DNA of 64,000 bases from Candidatus Methylospira mobilis (GTDB taxonomy: Bacteria > Pseudomonadota > Gammaproteobacteria > Methylococcales > Methylococcaceae). Under the pieces are notes generated by a model that was given only the letters and a program-made list of their open reading frames with translations, was not told the DNA's origin and made no database searches. The stretch lies in contig NZ_CP044205.1 in NCBI RefSeq assembly GCF_009498235.1, positions 1,235,716 to 1,299,715 on the forward strand, read 5' to 3'. Position 1 is the stretch's first letter. The number at the start of each line of letters is the position of its first letter. The translations under genes were made by a program, and so were the position numbers. Below, piece by piece: positions 16,798 through 64,000 of the stretch.

Positions 16798-17052
16798 ATG
16801 AACTGGCATGACCGCATCGTTTCCGATCCTGACACCTTGTTCGGGAAGCCGCGTATCAAGGGTACGCGCATAGGGGTCGATTTTGTTCTCGATTTGCTGG
16901 CTTCCGGCTGGACCGAGGCGCAAATTTTTGAGAGCTACCCCCATTTGCAGCAGGAAGACTTGCAGGCTGTTTTTGCTTTTGTTCGAGAATGTTTAAAGGA
17001 TGAAACATTCATTATGAAATCGACGTTACACCCGGGGGGACTGGCGGCGTGA
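16798..17052 (+). CDS. DUF433 antitoxin-like protein inside the cas operon
   Basis: 84 residues, MNWHDRIVSDPDTLFGKPRIKGTRIGVDFVLDLLASGWTEAQIFESYPHL..., a textbook DUF433 sequence (GKPxIxGTRI and helix-turn-helix-like ESYPHLxxED). DUF433 proteins are typically paired with DUF5615 PIN-like proteins as VapBC-like modules. The partner follows with a GTGA overlap at 17049-17052. It lies 30 nt after cas7 on the same strand, inside the cas operon. It probably binds and neutralises the PIN-like partner and may bind DNA. Confidence 0.82.
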   Translation: MNWHDRIVSDPDTLFGKPRIKGTRIGVDFVLDLLASGWTEAQIFESYPHLQQEDLQAVFAFVRECLKDETFIMKSTLHPGGLAA

Positions 17053-17420
17053 GCAAACCGGCGCTTCTAGCCGACGAGAACTTTCCGTTACCGGTGATCG
17101 CCGGACTGCGCCAAGCCGGTTATGACGTGCTCTCCATCGCCAGTTCGGTTCCAGGTATCAATGATCGTGCCGTCCTCGAATTGGCTTGCCGTACAGGAAG
17201 GCGCTTGCTGACCTTCGATGCCGATTTCGGCGATCTGGTTTGTTTTCGTGGTGTACTACCGCCGAAAGCGGTACTGTATTTTCGTCTTCATCCAATCAAG
17301 GTGGCTGAGGTTTTGAGCGTGGCTTTACGTGCGTTGGAAGAAACGCCGGATGGACATCTTGCGGTCGTCACGCGAGAAAATACACGTTTACGCCCATTTT
17401 TATCGAGGCAGAAACAGTGA
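17049..17420 (+). CDS. DUF5615 PIN-like toxin candidate inside the cas operon
   Basis: 123 residues. The N-terminal LLADENFPLPVIAGLRQAGYDV and the central RLLTFDADFGDL give the conserved acidic residues of the DUF5615/PIN-like fold; the following CFRGVLPPKAVLYFRL is also typical. PIN-fold proteins are Mg-dependent RNases, and this branch is usually paired with DUF433. Its GTG start overlaps the antitoxin stop. Its own stop overlaps the GTG start of cas4 (GTGA at 17417-17420), so cas4 translation should depend on ribosomes leaving this gene. RNase activity is inferred from family, not shown. Confidence 0.8.
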   Translation: MSKPALLADENFPLPVIAGLRQAGYDVLSIASSVPGINDRAVLELACRTGRRLLTFDADFGDLVCFRGVLPPKAVLYFRLHPIKVAEVLSVALRALEETPDGHLAVVTRENTRLRPFLSRQKQ

Positions 17421-37108: not shown

Positions 37109-37171
37109 TGTTTTTACAGGCAACCCGCTTGCCGAAGGACGAACGGAAAAAGCGATTGAATCGGCGCTTCT

Positions 37172-44320: not shown

Positions 44321-44911
44321 TCACGCACTGCGCGCGATCAACGGGCTGGAGCGCGGAAAGTGCGCGCGCAGAAACTCCATCTGATCGGCCAGGATCATAT
44401 GTCCCTGCAGGTAGATGTATTCCGCATGCGTGGGCACGAAGGGTATGGCCAGCAGTTGCATGTGGGCTTGTTCCGGAGTGCGTCCGGCCTTGTGATTGTT
44501 GCAGCGCTTGCACGCGGTCACCACGTTCGACCAGATATCCTGCCCGCCCTGGCTGACCGGGGTGATATGGTCGCGCGATAACTCGCGGCGGGAAAAACGC
44601 TGTCCGCAATAGAGGCAGAGATGGTTGTCTCTGCGAAACAGTGCGGGATTATTCAGCGGAGGCGTATAGTTGCGGAAACTTTTGAATCTGCCGGTGTTGG
44701 GGCAGTGCGTGGCGAGTATGGAATTGACTTCGAGTAGGCTGCGCCGGCCGGACGTGGCGTTAACGCCGCCGCGCAGCGAGCAGATGGGAAGGCCGCAGGT
44801 GTAAGCGACCTGATCGAGATAGTACAATTTAACCGCTTCCTGGTAGCCTATCCACTCCAGCGGCATACCCGATGCGTCGGTGCGTAATATCTGTAACCGC
44901 GATACTTCCAT
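44321..44911 (-). CDS. HNH endonuclease family protein
   Basis: 196 residues starting MEVSRLQILRTDASGMPLEWIGYQEAVKLY, the common start of this stand-alone bacterial HNH family. The HNH core follows: CLYCGQRF, SRDHITPVSQGG, and WSNVVTACKRCNNHKAGRTP (zinc Cys pairs, catalytic His, Asn and His). The longest frame (from 45043) would begin inside the promoter, so ATG 44911 was chosen. Function in the cell is not established. It ends 3 bp from the response regulator stop. Confidence 0.85.
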   Translation of the reverse strand: MEVSRLQILRTDASGMPLEWIGYQEAVKLYYLDQVAYTCGLPICSLRGGVNATSGRRSLLEVNSILATHCPNTGRFKSFRNYTPPLNNPALFRRDNHLCLYCGQRFSRRELSRDHITPVSQGGQDIWSNVVTACKRCNNHKAGRTPEQAHMQLLAIPFVPTHAEYIYLQGHMILADQMEFLRAHFPRSSPLIARSA

Positions 44912-45046
44912 TAAGCTTCCCCCAATTGACTGGAATACAACGTTCTGGAAATAAACCCTTTTCAATACCCTTCGGGATTTGTCAGGATTATAAGGTGGAT
45001 AGACCGGTAATCGCCCGGTTGATGGGTCCCATCGCTCCGCCACTCT

Positions 45047-45074: not shown

Positions 45075-45107
45075 ATTAAATCTTCTTAATTGAAAAATGA
45101 AAGAAAA

Positions 45108-47351: not shown

Positions 47352-48953
47352 CTACCGTATTCCGCTTTTCATCTCGTTCCATGGCGTATTCGGCGCGCGC
47401 ATAAAATAGCGCGCCCCTATGCCCATGACTACCGTTTGTTCGTTTTCCGAAACAAAGTCGGTCAGAGGCAGTTGCGTTACTTCATGCTGTAAATCCGGCT
47501 GGACGCCGGCGAACGGGTTGTTATGCATAAAATCCGCCAGCAGCGTCGCCAACGCCAGATAACTGTTGCCGTTATCGTCGCTTACCTGCGCTTTGCTTTC
47601 CTTCGCCGGTAGGCCGATCAGCTTGACGGCGGCAGGCACCATGCTGATTTTCGGGCTGGGAATTTCGCGCATGCCGGCTATCTGCATGCTGTCGCCATGG
47701 ATGGCTGCACCGTGTTCGGCGACCAGCACCACTACGCTGGGGCGGCCCGATTGCTCCAGCGCGCCGATGAATTTGTCTATGTCCTGCATCAGCTTATGCA
47801 TGCGCGGTTTGTAAGTATCCAGACTGTCGCCGGGTTTGCCGCCTGCCAGAACATTGCCGTCGTGCAGACTGATGGTGTTGTAGTAAAGCGCGACCGGCGC
47901 CTCCGGCTGTGTTTTTCTTTTTTCCAGCCAGCGATTCAGCAGATCGAAATCCTGGTAGATCGGGGTTTCGTCAAAACTGTGCATTTGCACGCTCGCGCCC
48001 AATGAACCCAGCGGAGGCGCTTTCAAGCCGCCGCGTTCCTGTACGTCTTGTAAAAACCCGCCGAAGTGACCATCGTGATTGAGCAGCAATTGCGGGGTAT
48101 AACCCGCTTCCGCCAACGAGTCGAACAGATAGCATTGCCTGGGTGCGTTCTGGTACAGCGCGGCGTGCGGCTGTTGACCGCATGCACCGCGCAGCAGGCG
48201 GATGGCGGCAGGACCGCTGTAACTGGCTGCGGAACCGAAGCGGGTGAACAGTACATCGAAATTTTTGAATAGTTCGATTTTTTCCGATGAGTCGATATCG
48301 TCCCAGGCCAAAGAGCAGATATGCAGAAAAATGATATCGAAAGCTTTGCTGGATGCGTCGATTTTTCCGAAGCCGACGTGCAGTTTGGCCTGATCGGTAT
48401 AAAACCTGTTCAGACGTTCATCCAGTTCTTTTTCAGAATAATGCTTGTCGGGGGGCTCCTCCGAAAGCGCTGATTGCCCGGAGCCGCTGTCGCAGGCGGC
48501 GGTTTGGATAGTCTCAGGGCTGGGTCTTGTTGCGACCAGTGCGGTTATCTGGGGAGCGCAAGCCAGCGCCAGCAATACGAAACTGCTGATGCGCAAGCGG
48601 CGTCCGAGCAATGCCGTCAGCGCGAACAGCAGCAGCATTCCGATAATAATACGCGGATTGATAAACCGGTTCAGCAGTTCCACAACGTAGGCGAAACTGA
48701 AGCTTTGCAGGTTGGGGGTCAGTGCAATCACGCGTTCGAAGGAGGGGAACCAGGAGTCGCGATAAAGCAGCATGACTGCTGCCGGTATCGCTATCAGGTG
48801 GCGCGCGATGCGCTGCCGCCTTGCAGGCAGCGGTACGATTAATATGGCGGCGAAAATCAGGTTTTCGGCTACGTGCAAACCGATGTACCCGCTCCAGTAC
48901 AGCGCGAGTTTGCCGATAAAATAGTAATTCCACAGTCCCATGGCGGTTTTCAA
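47352..48953 (-). CDS. bcsG: Cellulose phosphoethanolamine transferase BcsG
   Basis: 533 residues. N-terminal membrane part with about 4-5 helices (to ~140), then a periplasmic alkaline-phosphatase-superfamily domain. The likely nucleophile is Ser246 in SYSGPAA. Flanking cysteines are Cys213 (HICSLAWDD) and Cys258 (RGACGQQ), and zinc ligands include EHGAAIHGD (about 413-421). It transfers phosphoethanolamine from lipid to cellulose as it is made. The start overlaps the bcsA stop (ATGA). Last gene of the operon visible here. Confidence 0.93.
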   Translation of the reverse strand: MKTAMGLWNYYFIGKLALYWSGYIGLHVAENLIFAAILIVPLPARRQRIARHLIAIPAAVMLLYRDSWFPSFERVIALTPNLQSFSFAYVVELLNRFINPRIIIGMLLLFALTALLGRRLRISSFVLLALACAPQITALVATRPSPETIQTAACDSGSGQSALSEEPPDKHYSEKELDERLNRFYTDQAKLHVGFGKIDASSKAFDIIFLHICSLAWDDIDSSEKIELFKNFDVLFTRFGSAASYSGPAAIRLLRGACGQQPHAALYQNAPRQCYLFDSLAEAGYTPQLLLNHDGHFGGFLQDVQERGGLKAPPLGSLGASVQMHSFDETPIYQDFDLLNRWLEKRKTQPEAPVALYYNTISLHDGNVLAGGKPGDSLDTYKPRMHKLMQDIDKFIGALEQSGRPSVVVLVAEHGAAIHGDSMQIAGMREIPSPKISMVPAAVKLIGLPAKESKAQVSDDNGNSYLALATLLADFMHNNPFAGVQPDLQHEVTQLPLTDFVSENEQTVVMGIGARYFMRAPNTPWNEMKSGIR

Positions 48954-51445
48954 TGCTTTTTAATGGTGTAATCGATCAGTTTGCCGTATAAACGCCGGTA
49001 GCCGCGTATGGCTTGTTTCAGCACTTCGAGCAGGCTGTTCAGCGGGCTGTCCTGCAGCAATGTGGTGTGCCAATCGGCCCAGACATCGGCTCTGGAAAAA
49101 GTGCAATGGATGAAGCGAGCCTGTTGCTCTATCGATTGATGCATCAAATGCACGTTGATATGCTCCTCATTGACGAACTCAACGCGCGCCGGAAACGCAA
49201 ACTCCTGATCGCCTCGGTATAAACCTACCGACACCAGTTCGCCCTTACTGACTTCGGCGCCGGACGGGTGGGACAGAGCCAGGCCGGTTGTAGAAAAGTC
49301 GTGCGTTTTGCAATGCCAGGTGCGGCCGTCGGGCAGATACAGAACGGCGGGCATTTCAGCCGGGACGCGATGCGATTTACGTACCTGGCGCGCTTCGGTC
49401 GCAACGCTGAAAGCGGTGCCCAGCACGGTCAGATTATAAAGCGTCCAGCCCAGATTCATTAAAACCACATCCATTTCAAAACGGTTCCACCATAGCAGGC
49501 GCCCGATGCCGACCAGAAAGCCGCTAAGATTAATCCCGAGCAGTGCAAGGTAAGGCGCGGCAATGCGCCAATCGACAAAGCTTTGTTCGATCAAGCCGCC
49601 TTTGGGGGTAACGTTGAATTTACCCAGTTTCGGATTAAACAAGGCGAGCGTGGTGGGCAGGGTAATATACCAGGCCAATACCGTTTCATAGACCTCCGCC
49701 CAGAACGAATGCCTGAACCGGCCTTGTATGCGGGCATTGGTCAGGTTGGAGTGAAAGATATAGGGCAGTACATAGAACAATAAAATAGCCGCTTCGGTAT
49801 GAATAAAATGCAATTCGAAAAACAGATAGGCTTGCGGGGCGAACAAGAAAATAAGGCGGGGGATACCGTAAAAGAAGTGCAGCGTCGCATTACCGTAACA
49901 CAGGCGCTGAGACAGGCTCAGGCCCTTGCCCAGCAACGGATTGTCCGAGCGGAATATTTGCACCATGCCGCGCGCCCAGCGGATGCGTTGCCCGACATGG
50001 GCCGAAAGGCTTTCCGTGGCCAGTCCCGCCGCCAGCGGGATGTTCAGGTAAATGCTCTCGTAGCCGCGCCGGTGCAGTTTCAGCGCGGTATGCGCGTCTT
50101 CGGTCACGGTTTCGACGGCGATGCCGCCGATTTCCTCCAGCGGCGCGCGTTTCAGGATCGCGCAGGAGCCGCAGAAGAACGCAGCGTTCCACAGGTCGTT
50201 GCCGTCCTGGATCAGACGGTTGAACAGATAGCCTTCGTTAGGCACCTGACGGAAGGTGTTCAGGTTGCGCTCGAACGGGTCGGCGGAAAAAAAATGGTGG
50301 GGCGTTTGCAGCAAGGCGCGGCGCGGATGCCCGATCAGCCAGCCCATGCTTACTTGTAAAAACGAGCGTGTCGGAATATGATCGCAATCGAATATGGCGA
50401 TATATTCGCCCTGAGTCAACGTCAGCGCATGATTAAGATTCCCCGCTTTCGCATGGGCGTTATTGGAGCGGGTGATATAACCGACGCCGGTTTGTTCGGA
50501 AAAATGGCGAAACTCGTCCCGTTTTCCATCATCCAGCACATAAACCCTGATTTTTCCGGCGGGCCAGTCGATACCCTGCGCCGCATAAACGGTCGTTCTG
50601 ACCACATCGAGCGGTTCGTTGTAAGTCGGGATAAAAATGTCGACGCTGGGCCAGCTATCGATATTTACCGGCATCGGGAGGGGCGGGCGGCGTAACGGCC
50701 TGACCGATTGCAGGAAGCTGAGCAGCGTGATCAGCCAGGTGTAGGCTTCAGCGAACAGCAGCAGTACGCCAAAAACACGGTCGCCCCAGGTATTGAGCTC
50801 CATGGTTTGCGACACGCGCCATATTGCGTAGCGCAGCGTGGCGAGTTCGGCCAGCATTACCAGGATCACGGTCGGCAACACGCCCGGCGCATCCTTTATC
50901 AGCAGCGCAAAGCCCCATGTAGCCAAAAAAAACAGCAATTGCTGTGTCCGGTCGAGCGGCGTGGTGATGACCACAGTGGTGAAAACAACAGCGCTCGTCA
51001 ATAGAGCCGCTTTCAGTAACGGCGGACTCGAAAACGCTGTATTGTCGAGCTTTTCCAGCGTATCGGCGATTTGCCGGTCGGTCGGCAGCGGCAGGCGGCT
51101 TATCAGCGTTTGGAGCCACTGCCGTATTTTTGCCATGACATTGCTGCCCGCTTCTTCAGGGCCGGGCAGAACAAACAAGCGGAGTAGCCACTCTTCAGGG
51201 GCGGCAAGATTGCTCACCCCCAGTTCCTGCCCGAGCCGGCACAGCATGCGGGGCAGACGCCGTGTTAGAGAAGGGGCGGGTTTTTGCTGAGGAGGGAGGA
51301 TAAAAATCCGTAACAGCCATAGGTCCGGCCGGCCGGGCTTATCGACCCCAAGTTGCAGGGCAAGCGAGTATAACAGCCGGTGCGGATTCATGCTTCGAGC
51401 CGGAAATTGCATGGGTACGTCGGATACCGTCGCCGCACTGCGCAT
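48950..51445 (-). CDS. bcsA: Cellulose synthase catalytic subunit BcsA
   Basis: 831 residues. The GT2 domain has IPTYNEPLDVVR, DCD at 353-355, TED at 448-450 and QRIRW at 486-490, followed by FNVTPK gating-loop residues (610-615). The C-terminal PilZ domain has RKSHR (689-693) and DFSTTG (716-721), so c-di-GMP activation is expected. An N-terminal stretch of ~130 residues resembles a repeated motif (WLLRIFILP / WLLRLFVLP), which is unusual. Start at 51445 is uncertain; ATGs at 51412 and 51391 are also possible. Confidence 0.95.
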   Translation of the reverse strand: MRSAATVSDVPMQFPARSMNPHRLLYSLALQLGVDKPGRPDLWLLRIFILPPQQKPAPSLTRRLPRMLCRLGQELGVSNLAAPEEWLLRLFVLPGPEEAGSNVMAKIRQWLQTLISRLPLPTDRQIADTLEKLDNTAFSSPPLLKAALLTSAVVFTTVVITTPLDRTQQLLFFLATWGFALLIKDAPGVLPTVILVMLAELATLRYAIWRVSQTMELNTWGDRVFGVLLLFAEAYTWLITLLSFLQSVRPLRRPPLPMPVNIDSWPSVDIFIPTYNEPLDVVRTTVYAAQGIDWPAGKIRVYVLDDGKRDEFRHFSEQTGVGYITRSNNAHAKAGNLNHALTLTQGEYIAIFDCDHIPTRSFLQVSMGWLIGHPRRALLQTPHHFFSADPFERNLNTFRQVPNEGYLFNRLIQDGNDLWNAAFFCGSCAILKRAPLEEIGGIAVETVTEDAHTALKLHRRGYESIYLNIPLAAGLATESLSAHVGQRIRWARGMVQIFRSDNPLLGKGLSLSQRLCYGNATLHFFYGIPRLIFLFAPQAYLFFELHFIHTEAAILLFYVLPYIFHSNLTNARIQGRFRHSFWAEVYETVLAWYITLPTTLALFNPKLGKFNVTPKGGLIEQSFVDWRIAAPYLALLGINLSGFLVGIGRLLWWNRFEMDVVLMNLGWTLYNLTVLGTAFSVATEARQVRKSHRVPAEMPAVLYLPDGRTWHCKTHDFSTTGLALSHPSGAEVSKGELVSVGLYRGDQEFAFPARVEFVNEEHINVHLMHQSIEQQARFIHCTFSRADVWADWHTTLLQDSPLNSLLEVLKQAIRGYRRLYGKLIDYTIKKH

Positions 51446-51742: not shown

Positions 51743-52501
51743 TCAATGCGCAGGCTGCGCCAACAGCCAATCGGCGAGTCCCTGCAAATCGTGGCTGGCC
51801 TGGCTGTGGGGAGCGTAATCCGCTACACACTGATTGCTTGCCATGGCTTCGGGAATCGCTTCATCCTGGTGTATGGCGTAGCGCAGCATTTTACTCTTCA
51901 GGCGAACGCGCAGTATGCCGATGATATCGTCAGAGAGCAGTTTGGCGCTGTTAACCTTGTTTAAAACATGGAACAACCCGGGCGCATGCTCCGGCTCGGC
52001 GCTAAAACGCCGCTCGTAGTGCGCATGCATGACCGCTATATCTTCGAAACAGCCTGGTTGAGCCGTGATCACATGGAGTATCAGGTCTGCCGCCGCCAGC
52101 GCGCAGTCGAAGCAAAGAGACGGCGCGCGCTGCGTGTCGATTAACACGATGCAGCCGGAGGGCGGGGACAGGTCCAGCAGGAAATCGCGAACGCCGCGGC
52201 TTTCGATGACCGATAATTTTTCATGCGTCCGGTGCGTATTAACGCCATGACCAAAATGCAGCAGGTTGACATGGTCTGCATTGCGTTGCGCAGCATGATG
52301 CCATGTCTGATCGGCGGATAGATCAACAATGCCTGTCGGGTTACGAACGGTTAATCCCAGGTAGAGGCCGAGCCGGTTCGATGGGTCGAGTTCAACGGCC
52401 AGAACCGGCTGCTCCCGCCGGGTTAACAGTGAGGCTAAATTGGCGGTCAGGCTGGTTTTTCCTGTCCCTCCGCTGGCCGAGACGATAGCGACGACGAACA
52501 T
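51743..52501 (-). CDS. bcsQ: ParA/MinD-like ATPase BcsQ (YhjQ)
   Basis: 252 residues. P-loop SASGGTGKTSLTANLA with deviant Walker A, then VLAVELDPSN and a Walker B-like IVLIDTQRAPS. BcsQ places the cellulose machine at the pole and binds BcsR and BcsE. It starts 1 bp after the bcsF stop. Confidence 0.88.
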   Translation of the reverse strand: MFVVAIVSASGGTGKTSLTANLASLLTRREQPVLAVELDPSNRLGLYLGLTVRNPTGIVDLSADQTWHHAAQRNADHVNLLHFGHGVNTHRTHEKLSVIESRGVRDFLLDLSPPSGCIVLIDTQRAPSLCFDCALAAADLILHVITAQPGCFEDIAVMHAHYERRFSAEPEHAPGLFHVLNKVNSAKLLSDDIIGILRVRLKSKMLRYAIHQDEAIPEAMASNQCVADYAPHSQASHDLQGLADWLLAQPAH

Positions 52502-52720: not shown

Positions 52721-54286
52721 TTATGAGACGTTGTTGTAAGTGTATAGCTCGGATGTGTAATCGACCAAATGCGTTTGCGCCGCCAGTTTCCTGAGCCGCT
52801 GGATGCTGGCGTTGATGTCCTCGCTGTTGGTCATGCGCGTTTCATGGAGAAACAGATCGTTGATGCTTACATTTAAGGAACGCTCCAGCGCGGTGTCTAT
52901 ATCCGGCTCCCGGCAGGCGAAGAAAAAAATAAACAGACTGGCGTTGTCGGCGGTCATGACATCGCCTTTACGTTTGGGATGGTAGGCCAATAGCGCATCA
53001 ATGTGCGATCTTCCCGGCAGCAGGTCGAGACTGATCAGCGCATGTTGTATGTTAATATCGTGGGTGCGGTCCAACGTGGTTTGCACGAAATCGCAAAATT
53101 TTTGCGGCCGCAAATAACCGTTGACCTCAACCGGTATGGATTCACTCAACAAGTCTTCATAGGACATTACCGCCTTTTTCCCAAAACATTGTCCTTTCAG
53201 TGAATCGATACACCATAACAAATGCGAAAAACTTTCGTAGTTGTGCACGATCAGATTAGCGCCCAGCTGCATGAGCGCCATGTTCTGGTTATAGCGCAAG
53301 CGTTTGTTTTTTTCGCGGATAACGATTTTCAGGCCTCTACCCGCTGTTTCCCTTATCAGATGGGTTGTTTCGGCTAAAGTGGCGAATTTGACCGAGTTGG
53401 AGTAAGGCAGTATAACCGTGGCGGCGACGGCATGCTGAACCGCCTGCAGCAGGTCGGAAAAGCGCTCGTAGCGCTGCCATTCGGGCGGAACGCTTTTTTC
53501 GTTGAAAAGCGCGTCCACGGTGGTCAGCACCTGATCCTCATCCGGCGCATACAGCAGCTGTTGCGCCAGCGCGTCCATGGCGGAACCGTCCGCGCTTAAC
53601 GACTGCTGTTCCTCGTTATAGCTGACGCCATAGCTTCTTGCTTCGACACGGCTGCCTCCGGGGGTGTTCCAGTGGTCGATTCTCCAGTTGAGCCGGAGCA
53701 TATCCGCATCCAGTTCCGCCACGCCGTCCAGACAATTGCATTGTACGCGTATGGCGCCGGCGCCGGGGGATTCGAAATGCAGCTTATGAAAGACAAACAG
53801 ACCGCTGTGTTTCCATTCGCGCACCCAGGCGCGAAAAATCAGGCCTTGCCGCCGCACCAGTTTCAGATCATTCCATGAAAACAAACCTTCCGCTTCGTCC
53901 ATGATAATCAGCGATCCTGCCGGGATGCCGGTGTCGTCGAGTTCTTCCAGCAGTTTGTTCAGGCTGTATTTTTTAAGCAGTTCCTGGTAGTCGCCCGTGC
54001 TTTCCAGCACCAGGGGTTTACCATGCGATAAGGTTTCCGCTATGCCGGGCGCCATTTTTTCGATCAAACCGGCCCAAATCTCGGGCCGGCTGGAAATGAC
54101 GACCGCGCGCACGCCTTCCCGCCAGGCGCGCGCTATCGTTCCGGCAGTAAGCGTTTCTCGAATGTTGCGGTTACGCACGCAAATACCGTACAGTTGTCCG
54201 GGATAAATGGTGGAAACCGATTCAGGTAAACAATCTATGCCTATGTTAAGCGTAGCGTGTTTGCGCTTGGCAATCGAAAATTTCAT
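52721..54286 (-). CDS. bcsE: c-di-GMP-binding regulator BcsE
   Basis: 521 residues. N-terminal degenerate RecA-like/receiver part (VVISSRPEIWAGLIEK; LIIMDEAEGLFSW). The C-terminal GIL domain carries the I-site-like RKGD (about 439-442) followed by ADNASLFIFFFACRE. BcsE binds c-di-GMP and boosts cellulose synthesis and modification. The start overlaps the stop of the upstream small gene (ATGA). Confidence 0.88.
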   Translation of the reverse strand: MKFSIAKRKHATLNIGIDCLPESVSTIYPGQLYGICVRNRNIRETLTAGTIARAWREGVRAVVISSRPEIWAGLIEKMAPGIAETLSHGKPLVLESTGDYQELLKKYSLNKLLEELDDTGIPAGSLIIMDEAEGLFSWNDLKLVRRQGLIFRAWVREWKHSGLFVFHKLHFESPGAGAIRVQCNCLDGVAELDADMLRLNWRIDHWNTPGGSRVEARSYGVSYNEEQQSLSADGSAMDALAQQLLYAPDEDQVLTTVDALFNEKSVPPEWQRYERFSDLLQAVQHAVAATVILPYSNSVKFATLAETTHLIRETAGRGLKIVIREKNKRLRYNQNMALMQLGANLIVHNYESFSHLLWCIDSLKGQCFGKKAVMSYEDLLSESIPVEVNGYLRPQKFCDFVQTTLDRTHDINIQHALISLDLLPGRSHIDALLAYHPKRKGDVMTADNASLFIFFFACREPDIDTALERSLNVSINDLFLHETRMTNSEDINASIQRLRKLAAQTHLVDYTSELYTYNNVS

Positions 54287-54516: not shown

Positions 54517-57500
54517 TTAGTAACGATAATACGGTACTGGCGGTTCGGGCGGGTATGGAATCTTTTCCGTGCGCTCATCGAACGAATAACGGAAATAGAG
54601 GCCATAATAGTTAGGCGTATAGAATGGGGAACGCGCGATCTCGGCGCGTCCGCCCACGAACCAGTTCGGCGCGACCTGGTATTCCAGTACGCTGCGCAAC
54701 CCCCAACTGACTGCCGGAGACAGGCCGGAACTGCCCGTATATGTTGGGGTCGAGTTACCGTTCGTAAACGAAGATGTCAGGTTGGCCAGCTGTTGCGCCT
54801 GCGCTTGCAGGTCGGGACTGGTCGGGTAATAGTTGCCGCCACCTTCGCTCGACCAGGAGTAAGCCGCATAGCCGCGGAATAAAAAGGACAGATCGCCCCA
54901 GCGTCCGGTCCATTGTATGGGCGGTGCGATGGACAAATAGGTTTGTGGGCTCCAGTAACCGCCGTAGCCGAACGTATAATGGCGCTGATTATTGGAGAAT
55001 CTCCAATACATGCCGGCAATGCCTACTGTTAAACGCATGTTCGGTTGGTCGATGAGCGCCCAGTCCACGCCGGTGCGCAGCATGATGTCGGCGTTTGATT
55101 GTACATTTTTCCCTTCCAGGTAATGCGCCGCTCCCTGAGCGAAGAGTCCGAGACGGCCTTGGTCGATACCCATATAGATGCCGCCGCCATTCGCTTTGAC
55201 GCCCCCCCATACTTCGCCGGTTACCGGGTCGTGAGCTCCCGCGTAGGATAATAAACTGTTGGGTAACGCGCGCCGCGCCAGATCCCAGGAGTAGTACCCT
55301 TTTCCCCAGCTTCCGGAGTGATGCACGCCGCCGACAACCGTGGTGACCGGAAAGCCGAGCGGCGTAGTGCCGATGTCGAAACGCCAGTTATCGTTTTTGT
55401 AGCCGACTGCGATCGGCGCGCCCGATGCGGTTTGATTGATGGAGCCGGATAAGGCGTTTTGGTCTGTAATATTGCCAGCATAAAATTGTGTGGCCAATGC
55501 ATTTGGCCCCATGGTGGCATTATTACAACCCATTCCCTGGATCTGCGACAACTGCTGTGAAGATAATTGCTGTGATGAGGGTAACGCCTGTTGATTTTTT
55601 TGTGTGATTGCTGCAGTGGATGCGCAAAGCGCATTAATTTTTCCGAATTGGTTCGCAGTGGAGAATTGAGTCAGGTCCAGTTGTCCAGCGAACACATTGG
55701 CATAATCGGTCTGTACAAACACATGCCCGCTATAGCCTAGCGGGTATTGCATGTACACCGGCGCCTCCAGGTTGGTTACCTGTGACATGCCGGGCGTTCC
55801 TGAGAGGCTTCTGTAATCCACGCCGCTGGTGACATAACCATAGCGCCGCTGCTCGATTTTCTGGATTTCCAGCGCAGCCTCGCCGACAAGCGTCGCATCT
55901 TCCGGGCTGGTTTGCTTCCCGGATACGCTCTGTTTTTCGACCTGCCGTAAATAACCCAGCGCGCTTTCGTATTCCTTCGCCTTTTTTTCGATATTGGCGG
56001 CTTGCAGCAAGGTTTTTTTGTCGTTGGGCCGGGTGCGCAGCAAGTCGTTGATGATTTCGCGTGCATGCGTGAAATCATCTTCCTCGGCCAACTGTTCGGC
56101 CAGCGTGAGCCGGTTGCCGCGATCTCCTGTGGGAATTTCCTTGCCTAATCGGGCGATTTCGTCCCGAGCCTCTTCCTCTTTTCCCATCTTGCGCAGCGCT
56201 TTGGCATGGGACAGGCGCGTGTCATAACCTTTGGGATTTCCGGCGATCAGTTTTTGGTATATCTCGCCGGCTTCTTCGGACTTGTCTCCCAGATAGAGAA
56301 TATCGGCCAGCGTAGCGAGCAGGCCGATATCATCGGGTTGCTGCTCCAGGGTTTTATGCAGCAAGGCTTCCGCTTCGTCACTCCGGCCCTCGCCGCGCAG
56401 TTCCCAGGCGGTGCGAACGGCATACATGCGTTTAAGGTCGAGCAGACTTTCTTTCTGCTGTTTTGTCAGGTTGTTTTTAGTTTCGATGGCGGCGACTTTT
56501 TCGCTGAATTCTACGTTGCGTTCCGCTTTATACAGCAATCGCGCATAGCGTAAAGCATTATCGGTTGCGAGCGAAGGTTCGGCGTTTGCTTGCAGGCGTT
56601 TGCCCAGCGCCAGCGCGCGGTTGGATTCATTGATATCAGTCCATCCTTCCGCGCACTCCCAGGCCAGTTCCGGCGTGTCCCTGGCCTGGGTTTCGGCATG
56701 GAGCGACAATTTGACGGCGGCGCTGTGTTTTCCGTTCAGTTGCGCCTGTACGGCTTGCGCCAAATCGGCGCGAACGGAGGATTTAAGCGCCAGCGCCTTT
56801 ATCGAATCGGAGCGTTGTTCCGGTGCTATGCTCTCGATCGCCGCGCTGGCGCCGTTGTTGTCGCCCTGGCCGCTTAAAAACAGCGCTTCGGCATAACGGT
56901 TTTCCACGTCGCCGGCGGCGGGATCGTCGAACAGTTTTTTGGCTTTGCCGGCCAGCCCCTCGCGGGCGTACTGGTTGGCGAGGTCATAGCGCAGCCAGGG
57001 CGATGCCGGAATATCGTTCAAGCCGTTTTCCAGCACGCTCAGCGCCTGTTTGTTCCTGCCTTGTTTCAATAAATCGTCGCTTTCCGCACGCAGCAGGCCG
57101 GCGCGGGCGCCTGCGATATCTCCGGCCTGCTGCGGGTGCGCCTGGGCATAGTTTTCAGCATATTGCAGCGCTTCCGCCCGGCTTCCGTTTGCCGCCATGA
57201 TATCCAGGACGCCGTTTACCGCGCGCGAATTGACGGGATCGGCCAGCAATACGGCGTCGAACAGCTCCCGCGCGCGCGCGTTATTGCCGGCCTCCTGCTC
57301 GAGCTTTGCCAGCGTCAGTTGCGCCTCTCTGTTCGAGGTATCCAGTTGCAAGGCTTTACCGAGCAGATTCCGCGCTTCCTCCGCTTGCTGCTTTTCGCGT
57401 GCAGCTTCGGCGTTGCGTATCAGGTTGTCGACTTCATCTGCCCGTTGCTGCTTGCGCCGCGAAGCGATTTCCGCTGCCGATATCTGTTTATAGGGTACGG

Positions 57501-59400
57501 GTTGATCGGGAAAGGCGGCGGTAAACGCGTTGAAATAGCGTTCGGTATGCGCATTGCGTTCCAGGTTGGACAGTCCGTCGTTCCAAACCTTGAGTAAGGA
57601 TTCGCGCCTGATATCGTCGCGTTGCGTTAGCATCGCGACTTTGTCGAGGCCCCTGAGCAGGGTTGCCGGGTTATCGACCAGCAAAACAGCCAGCTCCAGT
57701 GGCGGGCGCGGGTCGTTCGGCATTTCCTTGCCCAGACGTTCGAGGCCGGCTTTCGCTTCGGCCTGATGGCCGTTGGCGCGCCCCAGCATGTGGTAATACA
57801 TGAGGCCCAGTTCGCCGTGCGGCGCGCCATTCGGAAACAAGGCGCGCAGTGCGCGTATCGCCGGCTCCATGCGGCTCGGCCCAACCCGGCCCAGAAAGTC
57901 CACGGTTGCCAGGGCCATGCGGTCTTTGGTGGCTATCCGATAGGCGTCTTCCAGTTCGTGCGTCGCCTCGGCGTCGGGAAATCGCGATTGCAATTGCTGT
58001 AACAGTTCCAGCGCCTGCGGGCTGTGATTTGCTTTCAGTTCCAGCTCGCCTATGCGCGCCAAAATCGCAGGATTGTCCGGTTCGAGCAGGCGCGCCTTGT
58101 TGGCGGCTTCGAGGGCAAGATCCAGGCGGTCTTTCACGACCCAGAGACGGGCGCTGTCCAGCAGCCTGCCAACCGGCGTATTCGAGGCGGATGCCTCGGG
58201 CGATCCCTGTTCCTTGTCGTCGCGGCGGCGGTTATTGTTCGTTCGTTGCTCGATGACGGCATCGGTGGATGCAACGCTGCTGCGAGCTATGAAAAATGCC
58301 AGGCACATTATCAGAAACAGTGTAGCGGCAGCCGAACACAGGCTAATGACAATCACTTCGCGCAACCGGAATCGGGATGGATTTTCCGCGATCGGAGGAT
58401 GAAGGTGCGAAGCGTCGGCTTTTTGCGCGTCCTCCAATTGTCGAACCAGGGTTTCCAGCTGTTTGAGGCGACTATTGAGCGCGTCACTTTTTTCGATGCC
58501 GGACCTTTCATCCCTGCGACCGGGCGCGTCCCGGCGTCCCAGGTCAGGCTGCACATCCGAAGTTGGGAGGCTTTTGAAGTCAGCACCAGTAGCTGGCGGC
58601 TCCGGGTGCGGATGATGGGAAGTATCGCGCTGTTTTGCTGCTGCGAGTTGTCTGCCCAGGTTTTCGATCAGCGCCTGCGCCGCTTGTTGCCGTGCATGGC
58701 GTTTTTTTTCGGCAGTTGCGTTTTGCCGCTGGGTTTGCTGCCGTAGCTTTTCCGCGCGCAGTTGTAAATCATTGCACTCTGCCCGCGTGTTGGCGTGCGC
58801 AATGATTTCCTGCTCAGCGGCTTCCTGCCAGCGTTGAACGCTTTCCTGCGCTTGCCTGGCGCTGTTTGCCGCTATTTTTTTTGACTCGGCCAGCCGGGAT
58901 TTTTCCGTGGTCAGGAGTTCGAGCTGCTGATTTCTGGAGGCGAGCGCTGCATGCAGATCCCCGGAAGTAGTTTGCAGTTGCTCAAGGTGTTTGCTAATCA
59001 AGCCAATCCGCTCCCTGTAGCTGCTTTGCTCGGAAAGCGTATCGGCGATGAGGAGCCTGATTTGTTCTGTTTCCGCTGTATTTTCCGGTAATGCCGCATC
59101 AGCGGGAAGCGACAGCCCATGTATGTGTGCGGCCGGTCTTTTTTTTGTTTCTTCAATGAGTTTATTGATGCCGGCTTCTATTTGCGCCAGCTCCGGTTTG
59201 GCAGCGGTTTGAGCTGCGCGCCCAGTTGTGGCGGTTGCGGTTGGTGTTGCTTGCCGTCGAGTATCCTGGTGATGCGCCGCATGATGCAGGAGGGAGAGGC
59301 GAAGTGCATCGCTGTCTGCCGGTCCTGGTTGATTTCCCCTGGTTATTTCATCGGGTAACGGTTGGAGCGAGTCGTCTTCGTACATCAGAGGGTTAAACAA
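54517..59400 (-). CDS. bcsC: BcsC-type cellulose exporter with cytosolic coiled coil and inner-membrane anchor
   Basis: 1627 codons. Residues 1-345 are cytosolic in prediction: a short RWSLF-containing start, then coiled coil (about 105-255 and 303-328). A single helix follows (about 348-372, VIVISLCSAAATLFLIMCLAFF), then TPR repeats through about 1230 (LDLALEAANKARLLEPDN and others) and a BCSC_C beta-barrel to the end (VTSGVDYRSLSGTPGMSQV ... YFRYSF). Usual BcsC has a cleaved signal peptide; here the anchor would make a protein spanning cytoplasm, both membranes and periplasm. The first codon is doubtful: only TTG 59400 is in frame. Confidence 0.85.
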   Translation of the reverse strand: MFNPLMYEDDSLQPLPDEITRGNQPGPADSDALRLSLLHHAAHHQDTRRQATPTATATTGRAAQTAAKPELAQIEAGINKLIEETKKRPAAHIHGLSLPADAALPENTAETEQIRLLIADTLSEQSSYRERIGLISKHLEQLQTTSGDLHAALASRNQQLELLTTEKSRLAESKKIAANSARQAQESVQRWQEAAEQEIIAHANTRAECNDLQLRAEKLRQQTQRQNATAEKKRHARQQAAQALIENLGRQLAAAKQRDTSHHPHPEPPATGADFKSLPTSDVQPDLGRRDAPGRRDERSGIEKSDALNSRLKQLETLVRQLEDAQKADASHLHPPIAENPSRFRLREVIVISLCSAAATLFLIMCLAFFIARSSVASTDAVIEQRTNNNRRRDDKEQGSPEASASNTPVGRLLDSARLWVVKDRLDLALEAANKARLLEPDNPAILARIGELELKANHSPQALELLQQLQSRFPDAEATHELEDAYRIATKDRMALATVDFLGRVGPSRMEPAIRALRALFPNGAPHGELGLMYYHMLGRANGHQAEAKAGLERLGKEMPNDPRPPLELAVLLVDNPATLLRGLDKVAMLTQRDDIRRESLLKVWNDGLSNLERNAHTERYFNAFTAAFPDQPVPYKQISAAEIASRRKQQRADEVDNLIRNAEAAREKQQAEEARNLLGKALQLDTSNREAQLTLAKLEQEAGNNARARELFDAVLLADPVNSRAVNGVLDIMAANGSRAEALQYAENYAQAHPQQAGDIAGARAGLLRAESDDLLKQGRNKQALSVLENGLNDIPASPWLRYDLANQYAREGLAGKAKKLFDDPAAGDVENRYAEALFLSGQGDNNGASAAIESIAPEQRSDSIKALALKSSVRADLAQAVQAQLNGKHSAAVKLSLHAETQARDTPELAWECAEGWTDINESNRALALGKRLQANAEPSLATDNALRYARLLYKAERNVEFSEKVAAIETKNNLTKQQKESLLDLKRMYAVRTAWELRGEGRSDEAEALLHKTLEQQPDDIGLLATLADILYLGDKSEEAGEIYQKLIAGNPKGYDTRLSHAKALRKMGKEEEARDEIARLGKEIPTGDRGNRLTLAEQLAEEDDFTHAREIINDLLRTRPNDKKTLLQAANIEKKAKEYESALGYLRQVEKQSVSGKQTSPEDATLVGEAALEIQKIEQRRYGYVTSGVDYRSLSGTPGMSQVTNLEAPVYMQYPLGYSGHVFVQTDYANVFAGQLDLTQFSTANQFGKINALCASTAAITQKNQQALPSSQQLSSQQLSQIQGMGCNNATMGPNALATQFYAGNITDQNALSGSINQTASGAPIAVGYKNDNWRFDIGTTPLGFPVTTVVGGVHHSGSWGKGYYSWDLARRALPNSLLSYAGAHDPVTGEVWGGVKANGGGIYMGIDQGRLGLFAQGAAHYLEGKNVQSNADIMLRTGVDWALIDQPNMRLTVGIAGMYWRFSNNQRHYTFGYGGYWSPQTYLSIAPPIQWTGRWGDLSFLFRGYAAYSWSSEGGGNYYPTSPDLQAQAQQLANLTSSFTNGNSTPTYTGSSGLSPAVSWGLRSVLEYQVAPNWFVGGRAEIARSPFYTPNYYGLYFRYSFDERTEKIPYPPEPPVPYYRY

Positions 59401-59533: not shown

Positions 59534-62044
59534 TCAGTGGGGAAATATCGCGGCAACCTGGGTGGCGTTCAGCGTGTTCGCATTCGGCAGATTCCTGCCG
59601 TCTGCCAGTTCTTCCGGGATAAACGGCTTTAAAACAGTCCCGGCCATCGCGCCGGCGTCAAATTCAAAAACGGCGCTCATTATTTGTTGTACATCGGGTA
59701 TCTCCGTTTCTGTTTCTTTGGCGTCGGTGCGTGTTAGTGATGCGGCTGGATGATAGTCGCCAGACTCTTCCTGTAACAATTGACCGGTAATTGCTGAGAG
59801 GTGTGCTGCTGCCGACCGAATACCGTGCAATTGCGCGGTGATCTGGCGCATGGGGAGCGTCGTCCCATCGGTAGCGGCATATATGGCCAAACCTGCTATC
59901 AAAACGCTGACGCTCAGCGTGCTCAGCCCTGCAGCAATGACGGCGCGCATACGTCGGCCGCCGTTGTTGTCAACAATGTTGTTTTTTGTGTAGCCGGCAT
60001 GGTCATGATCCAATGAAGAGGTGCCGTCAACCGGGCTTGCAGCGGTAACGATGTCCGCGCGGGACATGCTTAATTCGGCCAGCTTGCTTATATTGGACTC
60101 CAGTTGATCTGCGCGGCTTGACAAGGTATCTATTTCGCCGGGATTCCGGCGCCACTGGATGGAGCCGTCATTGGAGGATGGGGATAACGCGAATTTGTTC
60201 TGCCAGTTTTTAACCGCCGCTTTTTGCGCGTGCGAAACGTAATGGCTTGGCTCTTTCGATCCTGCACCGTCTTCGCGGGCGGCTTTGCTTAAGTCGTCCT
60301 TTACATTCTGCCAGACCAGTTGATGATTTTTTCCTTCCTGCCCGGTAGGTTGCGACAATCGGCGCAGTTTGCGGGGAAAGTGCGAGGCGCCGTCGTTAAT
60401 TGCAATAGGCGCCGCAAGCGCTGCCGCTACCGAGCGGGGTAATGTTGTCGCTATCGGCTTGAAACGTTCCTGTCCAGGTTGTTGGTTACGCTCGGCAGCG
60501 CCTTGACGAAGTATGAACGGTTTGACGTTCAGGATATTGGAATGTTTCCGCTCAACTTGAGACATGCCCACGGCGAATAGGGGGTGTGGAGCCGGCTCAT
60601 TATGAGGTGTACTGTCAGGTTCCGTCCGGGTGTTGTCCGGGTGCTCATTTTCGCTATCCGTTTGCAAAGCGGCTGCCATTCCTTCCTGTTTTGCGCTATG
60701 CGGGGCCATCTGCTGCTTGAATCCATCAATTAACCGTTGCGTCGCCTGAGTTTGAACGTTGAGCGCCTGAATGAAGGTCGCCGCCTGTTGCGACTGGTTC
60801 TGCAGCTCTTTGGTCAGATTCTCGATTTGCGCGCGCGTTGATTGTTCCAGTTCGTACATCTCTTTATGGAAGGCCGCGGCATGCCGCTTGACCTCCTGAT
60901 CAAGTTGTTCCAGTCCGTTCAGTAACGCGTCGCGGTCAGCGGCGGTAATGGCATGCGCGTTTATTTCTTCCGTTGCCGCCGCCTGCCATGCGCGGCTGTT
61001 TTCCAATGCCTTGGATGCGTTGTTTTCAGCGGTTTTTACCGTTTCGTTTAATTGCAGTTTTTCCTCGGTTAGTGCGGCTATCACTTCGTCTTTTTTGGCG
61101 ATTTCGCCATTCAGTTCTTTTATGCGCGTCTGCAGGGTTTCGATCTGCGCGCTGAGCGCTTCGATTTTTTCCTGCAATTCCACTCGCAGCCGTTCTTCGT
61201 TTTGAGCCTGTTGCAATAGCCGCTCTTTTGCGGCGATTGCAACGTCTCGTTCCGTTTCGGCGCTTTCTCTGGCGCGGACGGCCTGTTCGCGCTCGTTAAT
61301 CGCCGTCAGCGAGGTCTGGATATCGGTCAGTGAGGAGACGCGTCTATTGGCTTCCGCGCGGAGTTTTTGGATTTGCATTTCTATTTGCGAGGCATCGGGC
61401 GCTCTTGATGCGCGTGCGTCGGCGGTTGGGGTCCCTGAACCGGTTTTCACTGCGTCGGAGACGTCCGGAGTATGGCCTTTTACAGCCAGCGCGCATTCGG
61501 GCAGGCCGCGTTCTTGCAAACACCCATTGATACGCGCCAGTATATCGGCTTCGAAGGCTTCGCCGTTGATGGCGGATGGAAGCGAGAACGTTCTGGATTC
61601 ATGGTTTAGCGCGTACCGGCGGCGCAGGCTGATTGACCAGGCCAGCTTGCCCTCGGCGCGATGCGCGCAGGATATGGCCATCATTCGACACCCTGCATCT
61701 GTCTGGCGCAGGGCTGCAATCAGCGCAACGGTAAAGTCTTTTTGACAGTCGGTCAATAACGTCATTTCTTCGTTACCGGCCGATACGATTTCGATATGGC
61801 TCCATCCGGCGTGCCTGATATCCTGGGCATAGGTATCGTCCCCTGATTCGGAAAGCGCCGCTTCCTCGTTTTCGGTGATGATGGGGCCAAAGTCATCGTA
61901 CCAGATGCTTCCTGCATGGTAAGGGTGTTCTGTTCCGTTTTGATCAACAAATATCCCGCCGCTTTCCCTGAAAGAGTTCGACTCGGCCAGCAGTCTTGTC
62001 TGTTCGGGTGACATGCTGATCGAAGCAATGCTGAATTTTGGCAT
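59534..62044 (-). CDS. Membrane-anchored coiled-coil protein of the cellulose operon
   Basis: 836 residues, no family recognised. An N-terminal globular part (1-190, with KDFTVALIAALRQTD) is followed by a long coiled coil (about 220-440), a Pro/Ser-rich linker (450-640), one hydrophobic helix (about 701-723, AVIAAGLSTLSVSVLIAGLAIY) and a ~110-residue C-terminus, probably periplasmic. The coil contains AWQAAATEEINAHAIT, matching RWQEAAEQEIIAHANT in the BcsC coil. AGGAGG sits 8 nt before ATG 62044. Between bcsZ and bcsC on the same strand, so it is likely a scaffold of the Bcs complex. Confidence 0.7.
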   Translation of the reverse strand: MPKFSIASISMSPEQTRLLAESNSFRESGGIFVDQNGTEHPYHAGSIWYDDFGPIITENEEAALSESGDDTYAQDIRHAGWSHIEIVSAGNEEMTLLTDCQKDFTVALIAALRQTDAGCRMMAISCAHRAEGKLAWSISLRRRYALNHESRTFSLPSAINGEAFEADILARINGCLQERGLPECALAVKGHTPDVSDAVKTGSGTPTADARASRAPDASQIEMQIQKLRAEANRRVSSLTDIQTSLTAINEREQAVRARESAETERDVAIAAKERLLQQAQNEERLRVELQEKIEALSAQIETLQTRIKELNGEIAKKDEVIAALTEEKLQLNETVKTAENNASKALENSRAWQAAATEEINAHAITAADRDALLNGLEQLDQEVKRHAAAFHKEMYELEQSTRAQIENLTKELQNQSQQAATFIQALNVQTQATQRLIDGFKQQMAPHSAKQEGMAAALQTDSENEHPDNTRTEPDSTPHNEPAPHPLFAVGMSQVERKHSNILNVKPFILRQGAAERNQQPGQERFKPIATTLPRSVAAALAAPIAINDGASHFPRKLRRLSQPTGQEGKNHQLVWQNVKDDLSKAAREDGAGSKEPSHYVSHAQKAAVKNWQNKFALSPSSNDGSIQWRRNPGEIDTLSSRADQLESNISKLAELSMSRADIVTAASPVDGTSSLDHDHAGYTKNNIVDNNGGRRMRAVIAAGLSTLSVSVLIAGLAIYAATDGTTLPMRQITAQLHGIRSAAAHLSAITGQLLQEESGDYHPAASLTRTDAKETETEIPDVQQIMSAVFEFDAGAMAGTVLKPFIPEELADGRNLPNANTLNATQVAAIFPH

Positions 62045-62250
62045 TATCCTACCCTCCTCTTTAAGATTTACCGGCGGTTTGTGACTTGGCAACCATTGAT
62101 AAATATAACATGTTTGTACTATTCGAATGTGTTAATTCGGTTAAATTCAACGTGAATAAAATCCTTGTCTTAATCTGTTTGCCTGATGAAATCCGCCGTG
62201 CGGACAGGAGTATCTTCGATCAGTCCGCCGCAGTCGACAGGTCGGGGAGA

Positions 62251-63417
62251 TCATGGCGTTTTACATGCTTTCGTTTTGCTCCACACCGTCGTCAGCGAGC
62301 CGTCATCGGCAAACTGAAAGCGTTGTTCGTATCCGCCCAGACCGAATAGCGATAGAGCCTGATCGTAATAGGCGTTGGAGTTTTCTGCGAACGGCAGCGC
62401 TGCGATACGGTGTTTCTGTTCGGTAACCGCATTGGGCGCGCCGGAAGCCTGAAGAAAACCCAGCAGGGCTGCCGAAAATCCGGCCGGGCCTGTATTTTCG
62501 GCCACGCCGGTTGCAGTGTCGACGCGTTCCGGCGGTACGCCGTGTGTCTCGGTATATTGCTTCATACCCGCCAGCTTTTCCAATAGCTGGATACGGAACG
62601 GATCTGATGCCGGCATCAGCCCGCCCCACAGGTAGACGCGTATCGCGTCGTAGCCGCCTATGCCGGCTGTCTGCTTATCGGGCGCAAAACCTTCGTGTGT
62701 GCGGAAAAGCAGCCAGTCGGGCGAAAAACCGCGCGAAGTTTGCAGCAGTATGCGCCGGGATGTGGCCAGCAGCTCCGGCCAGCGCGACTGTGGCAGCGCG
62801 ACGGCAAAACGCTTGAGCAGGGGGAGGGGCAGGTAGCTGGGATTTAATCGCCAGGTATTTTCATCAGGATGAAAACCGGCGCGCCCAGGCAGCAGGGATG
62901 CGCCCAGCTCTGGAATGTCGGCTGTTTCTTCGCGCGCGATCCGGTTGGCAATCAGGACTGAAAGAGAGGCGTAGCGTTGATTACTCCAGAGCCGCCCGGC
63001 TTCGCCCAGCGTATAGGCCAGCCACAGGTCGGCATCAGCGGCTGAGTTGTCGTCGAGCACGCCCCAGCTGTCGTCATTGCGCTTGCCCCATTCCCATGCG
63101 GGCAGGTGCGCAGTCAGGTCGCCTTGCGCGAGGTTGTTTTCCGTCCATTGCAAAATCAATTTAAAGCTGTCGGCATCGTTGGCCGCCAGGGCGAAAAACA
63201 GCGCGTAAGCCTGTCCTTCCGAAGTTGTGTGGTGGTTTTGAGAGCCGAGGTCGATTACTCGTCCGCCTTCATTGATAAAAGTCTTTTTGAAACGGTTCCA
63301 GTCGGGCCAGTCGGCTTTGCAGGCTTCGGGCGGTAGGCGGAAACCGCATAACACCTCAATGAAGGTTGCGGCAAGCAACAGCATGGCGAACAGCTTGATA
63401 ACACAGTGTTTTTTCAT
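62251..63417 (-). CDS. bcsZ: Periplasmic endo-1,4-beta-glucanase BcsZ (GH8)
   Basis: 388 residues with a signal peptide (FAMLLLAATFIEVLCG). The GH8 acid is Glu67 in HTTSEGQAYAL and the base Asp257 in GGYDAIRVYLW. WLAYTLGEAG and NPSYLPLPLLKRF are typical. It trims or releases cellulose in the periplasm. It starts 3 bp after the bcsB stop. Confidence 0.95.
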   Translation of the reverse strand: MKKHCVIKLFAMLLLAATFIEVLCGFRLPPEACKADWPDWNRFKKTFINEGGRVIDLGSQNHHTTSEGQAYALFFALAANDADSFKLILQWTENNLAQGDLTAHLPAWEWGKRNDDSWGVLDDNSAADADLWLAYTLGEAGRLWSNQRYASLSVLIANRIAREETADIPELGASLLPGRAGFHPDENTWRLNPSYLPLPLLKRFAVALPQSRWPELLATSRRILLQTSRGFSPDWLLFRTHEGFAPDKQTAGIGGYDAIRVYLWGGLMPASDPFRIQLLEKLAGMKQYTETHGVPPERVDTATGVAENTGPAGFSAALLGFLQASGAPNAVTEQKHRIAALPFAENSNAYYDQALSLFGLGGYEQRFQFADDGSLTTVWSKTKACKTP

Positions 63418-63420: not shown

Positions 63421-64000
63421 TTACCCTTGTAGCCGTTTCTGAGCGATGCGGCGTAAAGCCCAGTAACAGACGAAAGCGATGAATAATCCGCTGCCGATGC
63501 CCATCGATGCTAAAAGGAATGGGTGTCTGGAGATATGAAACCAGGTCCATATCCAGAATGGAATGTTTCCTGTGAAATAATTGGCGCCCACCTGGAAGCT
63601 TTCTACCGTTTTGCCGCGCATTATCGCCACATCGCCGCGTATGTAACGAATCGAGCCCGGGTCTTCCAGCGCGTCGACGGCGTGACGCGCGCCTTCGCTG
63701 CCGTTGCCGATCAACGCCACTACGCTGCGCCCGCGATGGAGGGGGGACTCGAATCCTGTCAGCATGCCGAGCGCTCCGCTGCTGCTGACAGAAGTTTTTC
63801 CTGAGGATGCCGGCGTGGTAACCGGTAAGCCTGGGTCGAAAAGACGGTAAGGATAATGCGCTCTTTGTGAATTGCCGGCAAAGAGATTGTGCTCCTTATC
63901 TGTCAATGCAGGAAAGTTTTTGTTCCAGCTCTTCAGCAGCGGGTGCCGCGCCGCGGTATCGATGAGCAGTAAATCGCTGTCTTCCCTGCCGCTGGTCTGG
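63421..64000 (-). CDS. bcsB: BcsB, C-terminal part, cut by window edge
   Basis: The frame is open to base 64000 (LLLIDTAARHPLLKSW at the edge). The visible part is the last ~190 residues. It includes RSVVALIGNGSEGARHAVDALEDPGSIRYIRGDVAIM, typical of the second carbohydrate-binding/flavodoxin-like repeat region, and a C-terminal anchor helix (LLASMGIGSGLFIAFVCYWALRRI). BcsB guides cellulose through the periplasm and anchors on BcsA. The remainder is beyond the window. Confidence 0.9.
   Translation of the reverse strand, partial: QTSGREDSDLLLIDTAARHPLLKSWNKNFPALTDKEHNLFAGNSQRAHYPYRLFDPGLPVTTPASSGKTSVSSSGALGMLTGFESPLHRGRSVVALIGNGSEGARHAVDALEDPGSIRYIRGDVAIMRGKTVESFQVGANYFTGNIPFWIWTWFHISRHPFLLASMGIGSGLFIAFVCYWALRRIAQKRLQG

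Follow-up and report, generated by a model that had tools for sequence, protein, structure and literature searches.

In the Type II Bcs system of E. coli (BcsRQABEFG, BcsZ and BcsC), the N-terminus of the exporter BcsC, TPR 1, is described as docking on BcsB (PMC11379886). Other cellulose systems employ BcsH or BcsP together with BcsD, in the cortical belt, as a cytosolic scaffold (PMC11470070, PMC7811197). Fusions of bcs genes are also described, and the excerpt consulted names BcsZC and BcsAB and none of a coil-anchor kind (PMC7112194). PelB of Pseudomonas aeruginosa, a TPR-barrel exporter, is proposed to bridge both membranes, its inner-membrane helix remaining uncleaved (PMC12141448). How outer-membrane polysaccharide exporters are aligned with inner-membrane machines, and how several exporters are placed side by side, is largely open.

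The locus analysed here shares bcsB, bcsZ, bcsC, bcsE, bcsQ, bcsA and bcsG with the E. coli system and also has a bcsR-like ORF. It is a Type II Bcs operon that contains one additional gene, here called gene A, and encodes a BcsC of much more than the usual length.

Gene order and the product of gene A

The window, the whole stretch of 64,000 nucleotides that was analysed, comprises bases 1235716-1299715 of a one-contig 4.70 Mb genome. Since two genes of the same genome matched PF02461 (methane/ammonia monooxygenase), with equal scores, the host is very probably a methane-oxidising bacterium, presumably close to the Methylococcaceae. On the minus strand, the genes follow the order bcsB, bcsZ, gene A, bcsC (product B), bcsR-like, bcsE, bcsF by position, bcsQ, bcsA and bcsG (Table 1). 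The assignment to Type II was based on the presence of BcsE and BcsG, and of BcsQ alongside BcsA, B, Z and C. The 206 bases between bcsZ and gene A (window 62045-62250, minus strand) include an AT-rich stretch by eye and may hold a separate promoter for gene A.

Table 1. Features of the cellulose locus (window positions) and of protein D (L008 positions).
Feature	Position	Strand	Remarks
bcsB, 3' part	63421..63999	-	gene extends beyond window end
bcsZ	62251..63417	-	upstream of gene A
gene A, 836 aa	59534..62044	-	ATG at 62044, stop at 59534; GAGGAGG (Shine-Dalgarno) 8 bases upstream of ATG
A 1-195, small predicted alpha/beta domain	61460..62044	-	absent from C
A 217-446, coil	60707..61396	-	up to residue 430, cassette common to A, B, C and D
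A 352-367, 16-mer AWQAAATEEINAHAIT	60944..60991	-	helix broken at 364-367 in low-confidence model
A 638-661, predicted short juxtamembrane helix	60062..60133	-	stretch kept in C (LExNxxKLAELSM)
A 703-721, membrane helix	59882..59938	-	N side basic
bcsC (B)	54517..59400	-	1627 aa from TTG, 1622 from first ATG; downstream of gene A
B 1-403, extension at relatives' signal-peptide position	58192..59400	-	paralogous to D 1-420
B 70-262, coil cassette	58615..59193	-	
B 190-205, 16-mer RWQEAAEQEIIAHANT	58786..58833	-	
B 349-367, membrane helix	58300..58356	-	then FFIARSSVASTD...NNNRRR, nearly identical in D
bcsR-like ORF, 71 aa	54283..54498	-	between bcsC and bcsE; PF10945 E 8.3e-5, 22.6 bits, under the 25.2 cut-off
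bcsE	52721..54286	-	PF10995 E 9.4e-95
bcsF by position, 63 aa	52503..52694	-	one hydrophobic stretch (by eye); 0 BcsF family matches
bcsQ	51743..52501	-	
bcsA	48950..51445	-	
bcsG	47352..48953	-	PF11658 E 3.5e-181
D, 978 aa	L008:8481-11417		coil and membrane helix in first ~420 residues, then EpsL-like barrel

In the predicted topology of the gene A product, the N-side is cytosolic and a single membrane helix leads to a tail of ~115 aa in the periplasm. For its N-terminal domain, a single-sequence model reached a pLDDT of 56, and Foldseek returned 606 matches at E <= 10 and none at E <= 0.001. Based on these two results, a fold assignment for A 1-195 was dropped. No Pfam family matched A 1-195 or B 1-408 at E <= 1.

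Elsewhere in the window, the minus strand carries a VgrG-like gene as two overlapping ORFs, 37172-38326 and 38308-39648, with the PF05954 baseplate-hub part first; the remainder matched DUF6484 weakly, under the cut-off. To judge by eye, the pair represents a frameshifted gene. The 1082-aa autotransporter at 33875-37123 (minus strand) has a Pfam barrel ending at residue 733, and its last ~350 residues appear by eye to be a second, different beta-rich outer-membrane domain. An HNH endonuclease gene (44321-45043, minus strand) adjoins a helicase gene (45090-47345), which we take to be priA-like.

Homologous coils in four proteins of two operons

An earlier note, made from the letters of the window, had pointed to a matching 16-mer in the coils of A and B, along with a single membrane helix and a periplasmic part in both, and had proposed from these features a paired cytosolic scaffold under the synthase. 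The 10/16 identities of the 16-mer were recovered. On its own this match is modest, as the best 16-mer per heptad-position shuffle (n=60) had 7 identities in 41 shuffles, 8 in 11, 6 in 6 and 9 in 2. The 16-mer is, however, a small part of the match, as BLASTP aligned ~200 residues of coil with 63/199 identities (32%, E 4e-17). The local score of 218 compares with a maximum of 111 among 1000 shuffles of each of four kinds, including heptad-position and heptad-block shuffles, and the match thus persists against shuffled coils. Helix-rich control windows taken from this analysis' own sequences (61 found, 57 after four near-self windows had been removed beforehand) gave best scores of 68 for A and 55 for B. 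A chance match from coil composition was ruled out by the BLASTP, shuffle and control scores together.

The proteins are labelled coiled coils because of their heptad periodicity and the low-confidence AF2 model of A. The observed periodicity was reached by 0, 8, 31 and 29 of 300 shuffles each for A, C, B and D, respectively; it is clear in A and C and weak in B and D. By whole-coil Fourier analysis, none of the four exceeded the shuffles' 95% level; short windows did so for A and C. Proline, looked at because BcsHD and BcsPD scaffolds have a proline-rich cytosolic partner, accounts for 4.1% of all residues in A and 4.3% in C; the values for their linkers are 8.9 and 8.0%, respectively, and the coil of A has 0/230. 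The AF2 model of A (two sequences, low confidence, mean pLDDT 42.6) has helices at 218-363 and 368-446. The core motif of the cassette, W..AA..EI..HA.T, coincides with the break between the modelled helices and may therefore be a hinge or turn.

When the own genome was searched with A, four further matched stretches were found, two in a protein of 540 aa (C), one in BcsC and one in a protein of 978 aa (D). C and D are encoded just beyond the window end, on the strand opposite to bcsB, and their starts are separated from that of bcsB by ~2.4 and ~5.9 kb, respectively. The divergent exopolysaccharide (EPS) operon to which they belong also holds a YdjC-like gene and genes for WcaI- and WcaJ-like transferases, a Wza-like exporter and a Wzc-like kinase. 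The matching pair of the note thereby became a family of four proteins in two operons; its 16-mer stood, within a match of the whole coil, and its confinement to A and BcsC did not. The note had also held that homologues unlinked to bcs genes would speak against its proposal, and this applies by half, with C and D in the next, divergent operon.

C is paralogous to A through the coil, linker pieces, juxtamembrane stretch and helix, and lacks the 1-195 domain. The first ~420 residues of D match B 1-406 with 43% identity over the whole alignment (BLASTP E 6.8e-76 for D 69-420), and this similarity begins at the first in-frame ATG of each. Further along, D 593-974 matched PF10082 (E 9.6e-21) and, partially, TIGR03014 (38.9 bits against a cut-off of 275); this EpsL-like barrel is unrelated to the BcsC exporter.

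The cassette tree grouped (A,C) and (B,D) in 100% of 200 bootstraps, which places the split between A and B types ahead of the copying. Identities were 98/213 for the A-C coil and 176/408 for B-D, a similar divergence that fits one shared copying event without proving it. Conservation at third codon positions was 0.50 for B-D, against 0.64 and 0.65 at the other two, and 0.43 for the A-C coil, against 0.62 and 0.69. Third positions are thus the least conserved, as expected of selected coding sequence. After the cassette, residues ~416-442 of D resemble the start of the BcsC TPRs (score 44; 2/1000 shuffles were as good), and this possible TPR-1 remnant gives a hint that copying went from bcs to EPS. 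No notable shared sequence was found between the upstream DNA of A and C or of B and D. A transposase-like gene, presumably ISAs1-like by eye, lies ~3 kb beyond the Wzc-like gene (L008:17230-18336, plus strand) and is a possible agent of local duplication.

The BcsC extension and its occurrence in other genomes

B consists of the coil and membrane-anchor extension, a TPR solenoid matching TPR families and a BCSC_C barrel (PF05420 E 1.5e-93). No N-terminal signal peptide was found in B by hydropathy; the hydrophobic helix is at 349-367 instead. One strongly hydrophobic region was present in each protein (A 703-721, B 349-367, C 443-461 and D 363-381), in agreement with the single membrane helix that the note had given A and BcsC (B was scanned to residue 1200). 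As the N-side flank is basic in all four, an N-in/C-out orientation is predicted, and the coils are most simply cytosolic, given that neither the TPRs nor the barrel of B can be in the cytosol. The exact starts of B and D are uncertain, since neither has a clear Shine-Dalgarno sequence upstream by eye.

The best conserved part of the extension is B 341-400, comprising the helix and FFIAR.SVASTD.VIEQR.NNNRRR, with 42/60 residues identical in D. Only ~37 residues separate the membrane helix of B from TPR 1, which places the anchor at the BcsC-BcsB docking joint known from E. coli; by analogy, an anchor at the BcsC N-terminus would fix the corresponding joint. Directly after the helix, R(S/N)SVASTD is nearly identical in B and D. 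Its S-V-A, small residues at what we take to be the right spacing for signal-peptidase cleavage, could be a cleavage site, which would free the exporter. If the helix is uncut, BcsC would be a single chain from the cytosol to the cell surface; we infer an uncleaved anchor.

For the relatives, BCSC_C was present in 4/38 family, 39/311 order and 18/369 class genomes, the own genome being counted each time. The own bcsC open frame, of 1640 codons, was the longest in all three sets, followed by frames of 1436 (G377, uninformative), 1357 and 1354 codons. A hydrophobic stretch started within the first 69 codons in 21/22 BcsC frames by hydropathy, L102 being uninformative. In 15/22 frames, homology to B starts at B residue 403-425 opposite codon 25-53, just past the signal-peptide-like stretch, and the module therefore occupies the position of the signal peptide. 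In L086 and L099 it begins opposite codons 143 and 103, and in L094, L097, L098, L100 and L102 only further in. The exporters of the inspected relatives had signal-peptide-like starts and no matching coil. The family genome G029 has the order bcsB-Z-C-E-Q-A-G without the extra gene (gene names by eye except BcsC) and a BcsC of 1194 aa with a signal-peptide-like start; no gene can lie between its bcsZ and bcsC because the two frames overlap. In G011, bcsB adjoins an ordinary BcsC of 1257 aa.

Two other arrangements were seen among the relatives. In L086 (G092), the TPRs of BcsC are separated from the signal-peptide-like stretch by ~100 additional residues rich in Ala and Lys, a different N-terminal elaboration. 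The bcs-like run of L019 (G011) contains by eye two bcsB-like genes (10579-13083 and 15073-17259) and a synthase-like ORF (5178-6641) seemingly without its catalytic middle.

Of the 38 family genomes, 14 besides the own have a barrel related to that of D, within frames of 158-552 codons. Five stretches examined (5.7-14 kb each; ORFs of at least 90 aa, E <= 1e-4) gave no match to C or to the N-terminal part of D. Homologues of the module were then sought at the family, order, class and phylum level, with A in 61 genomes, the B and D N-termini in 201, 369 and 289, and A and C in 311, the own genome being part of each set. No convincing homologue emerged over 1,226 screenings of other genomes in these overlapping sets. 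Three outside matches were taken as chance coil matches and rejected as homologues: G009 (7.6e-4 and 2.9e-5; by eye a repetitive coil behind a glycosyltransferase-like domain), G156 (4.5e-4, 73 positions with one internal stop) and G385 (3.7e-4, 59 positions). Peptide-pattern scans of genome contigs, weak with only 6 and 2 patterns, did not detect the module, and neither did searches of plasmids, one viral scan or a PDB profile search. As the samples are not all genomes and coils diverge fast, distant relatives may have been missed. With the module seen in one genome only, a widespread Bcs component is unsupported. No description of a coil-extended BcsC or EpsL was found in the literature, as judged from titles and abstract starts.

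A candidate docking module for exporters

On the sequence evidence, the four-way homology, the predicted shared topology, the extension in place of a signal peptide and the separation of A and B types before the copying are established. We favour, with a probability of roughly 0.55, a reading in which A and the N-terminus of BcsC are the two parts of a cytosolic coil module that is anchored in the inner membrane and serves to dock outer-membrane exporters; the module would not be specific to cellulose and would have been copied to the adjacent operon. Each part would run from a coil in the cytosol over a flexible linker and a single membrane helix into the periplasm. The periplasmic portion of BcsC would be the whole TPR-barrel exporter, giving one chain through cytosol, inner membrane, periplasm and outer membrane; in the EPS operon, the B-type part would be joined to the EpsL-like barrel. 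The free anchors (A and C) would meet the exporter-fused anchors (B and D) via their homologous cytosolic coils, A probably associating with B and C with D. The coil module would dock the exporter below the synthase or next to it, and several complexes may be gathered at one site. The pair would have arisen at one operon and then been copied to the adjacent one, perhaps in a single event and in the direction hinted at above. Similar coils could even join the cellulose and EPS systems. A wider version, still tentative and rather unlikely, is a portable export-docking cassette, in which one coil pair serves two unrelated exporters, each a cytosol-to-surface chain, with cellulose and EPS possibly exported at the same cytosolic cluster and leaving together as a composite matrix.

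From the paired scaffold of the note, a membrane-anchored, predicted cytosolic coil pair survives, on the homology, the predicted topology and the tree, whereas its cellulose-specific character does not, as the pair also occurs in an EPS operon with an unrelated exporter. With C and D in that operon, a cellulose-only cytoskeleton was likewise set aside as too narrow, and the likeness to cytoskeletal partners in other cellulose producers is an analogy only.

The alternatives differ in the fate of the helix and in the role of the coils. Signal peptidase may cut after the helix, at S-V-A in B and D, and so release an outer-membrane exporter of the ordinary kind from a coil peptide that stays in the membrane; the coil pair would then act on its own, as a scaffold or regulator at the inner membrane, and the fusion would mainly couple expression. 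The near identity of R(S/N)SVASTD, with small residues suitably spaced, and exporter parts that otherwise fit ordinary families agree with this. The hydrophobic stretch of B is nevertheless ~24 residues by eye, long and more anchor-like than a cleaved signal, and the conserved NNNRRR beyond the site is not needed for a cut site alone, which makes cleavage an unlikely though serious contender. As for the coils, they might instead recruit a cytosolic signal-sensing partner, for example via A 1-195, that opens or positions both exporters, and would then be an assembly or regulatory adaptor and not a structural scaffold. Such a role would suit the extra N-terminal domain of A, missing from C, and regulators in the cytosol already surround the synthase in Type II Bcs systems (PMC11470070). 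This is distinctly unlikely in our judgement, as A 1-195 has no family or fold match and C retains the coil, linker pieces and helix without that domain.

A function need not be assumed at all if a coil-anchor gene landed next to bcsC, was duplicated and became fused to two exporters with no specific role, and the absence of the module from the family, order, class and phylum samples, with one genome only carrying it, is what such a near-neutral event would leave. We consider it quite improbable, since the protein was kept while third codon positions drifted more, the fusion design persists in two operons and both the A and B types were copied there. Finally, the uncertain start codons of B and D, with no clear Shine-Dalgarno by eye, could be a sign that the annotation or the assembly is wrong and that A or the extension of BcsC is not translated as drawn. 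This is scarcely credible, given open frames without internal stop on a one-contig genome, a design that occurs twice and a B-D similarity that begins at each first in-frame ATG.

For the docking module, the same predicted cytosolic anchor is fused to two unrelated exporters and a matching partner is kept for each; this points to a common means of tethering sugar exporters of the outer membrane to the interior of the cell. Docking, cross-talk and co-export could be tested on A/B and C/D as a natural pair, and the module is a possible part for engineering exporter placement.

Compared with the E. coli Type II system, the present operon differs in the coil gene between bcsZ and bcsC and in a BcsC with a 403-residue coil and membrane-anchor extension. 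The idea of a cytosolic scaffold, shared with BcsHD and BcsPD, is a functional analogy only; here the candidate scaffold is coil-based, fused to an outer-membrane exporter and also present in an EPS operon. BcsP has a BcsR-like N-terminus, for which the Pfam search of A 1-195 and B 1-408 at E <= 1 gave no counterpart. BcsD (PF03500) had no match in the genome, in a search that also gave none in control genomes, and none was seen by eye among operon ORFs of at least 100 aa. The EpsL/BBP2_2 barrel of EPS operons is shared with D 593-974, likewise beside Wza- and Wzc-like genes; unlike its relatives, D is longer and bears the module. The closest precedent for an inner-membrane helix that stays uncut is PelB. 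Its 22 apolar residues are located at the N-terminal end (PMC12141448), whereas in BcsC here 348 residues including the coil precede the helix, and a separate protein carries a homologous coil.
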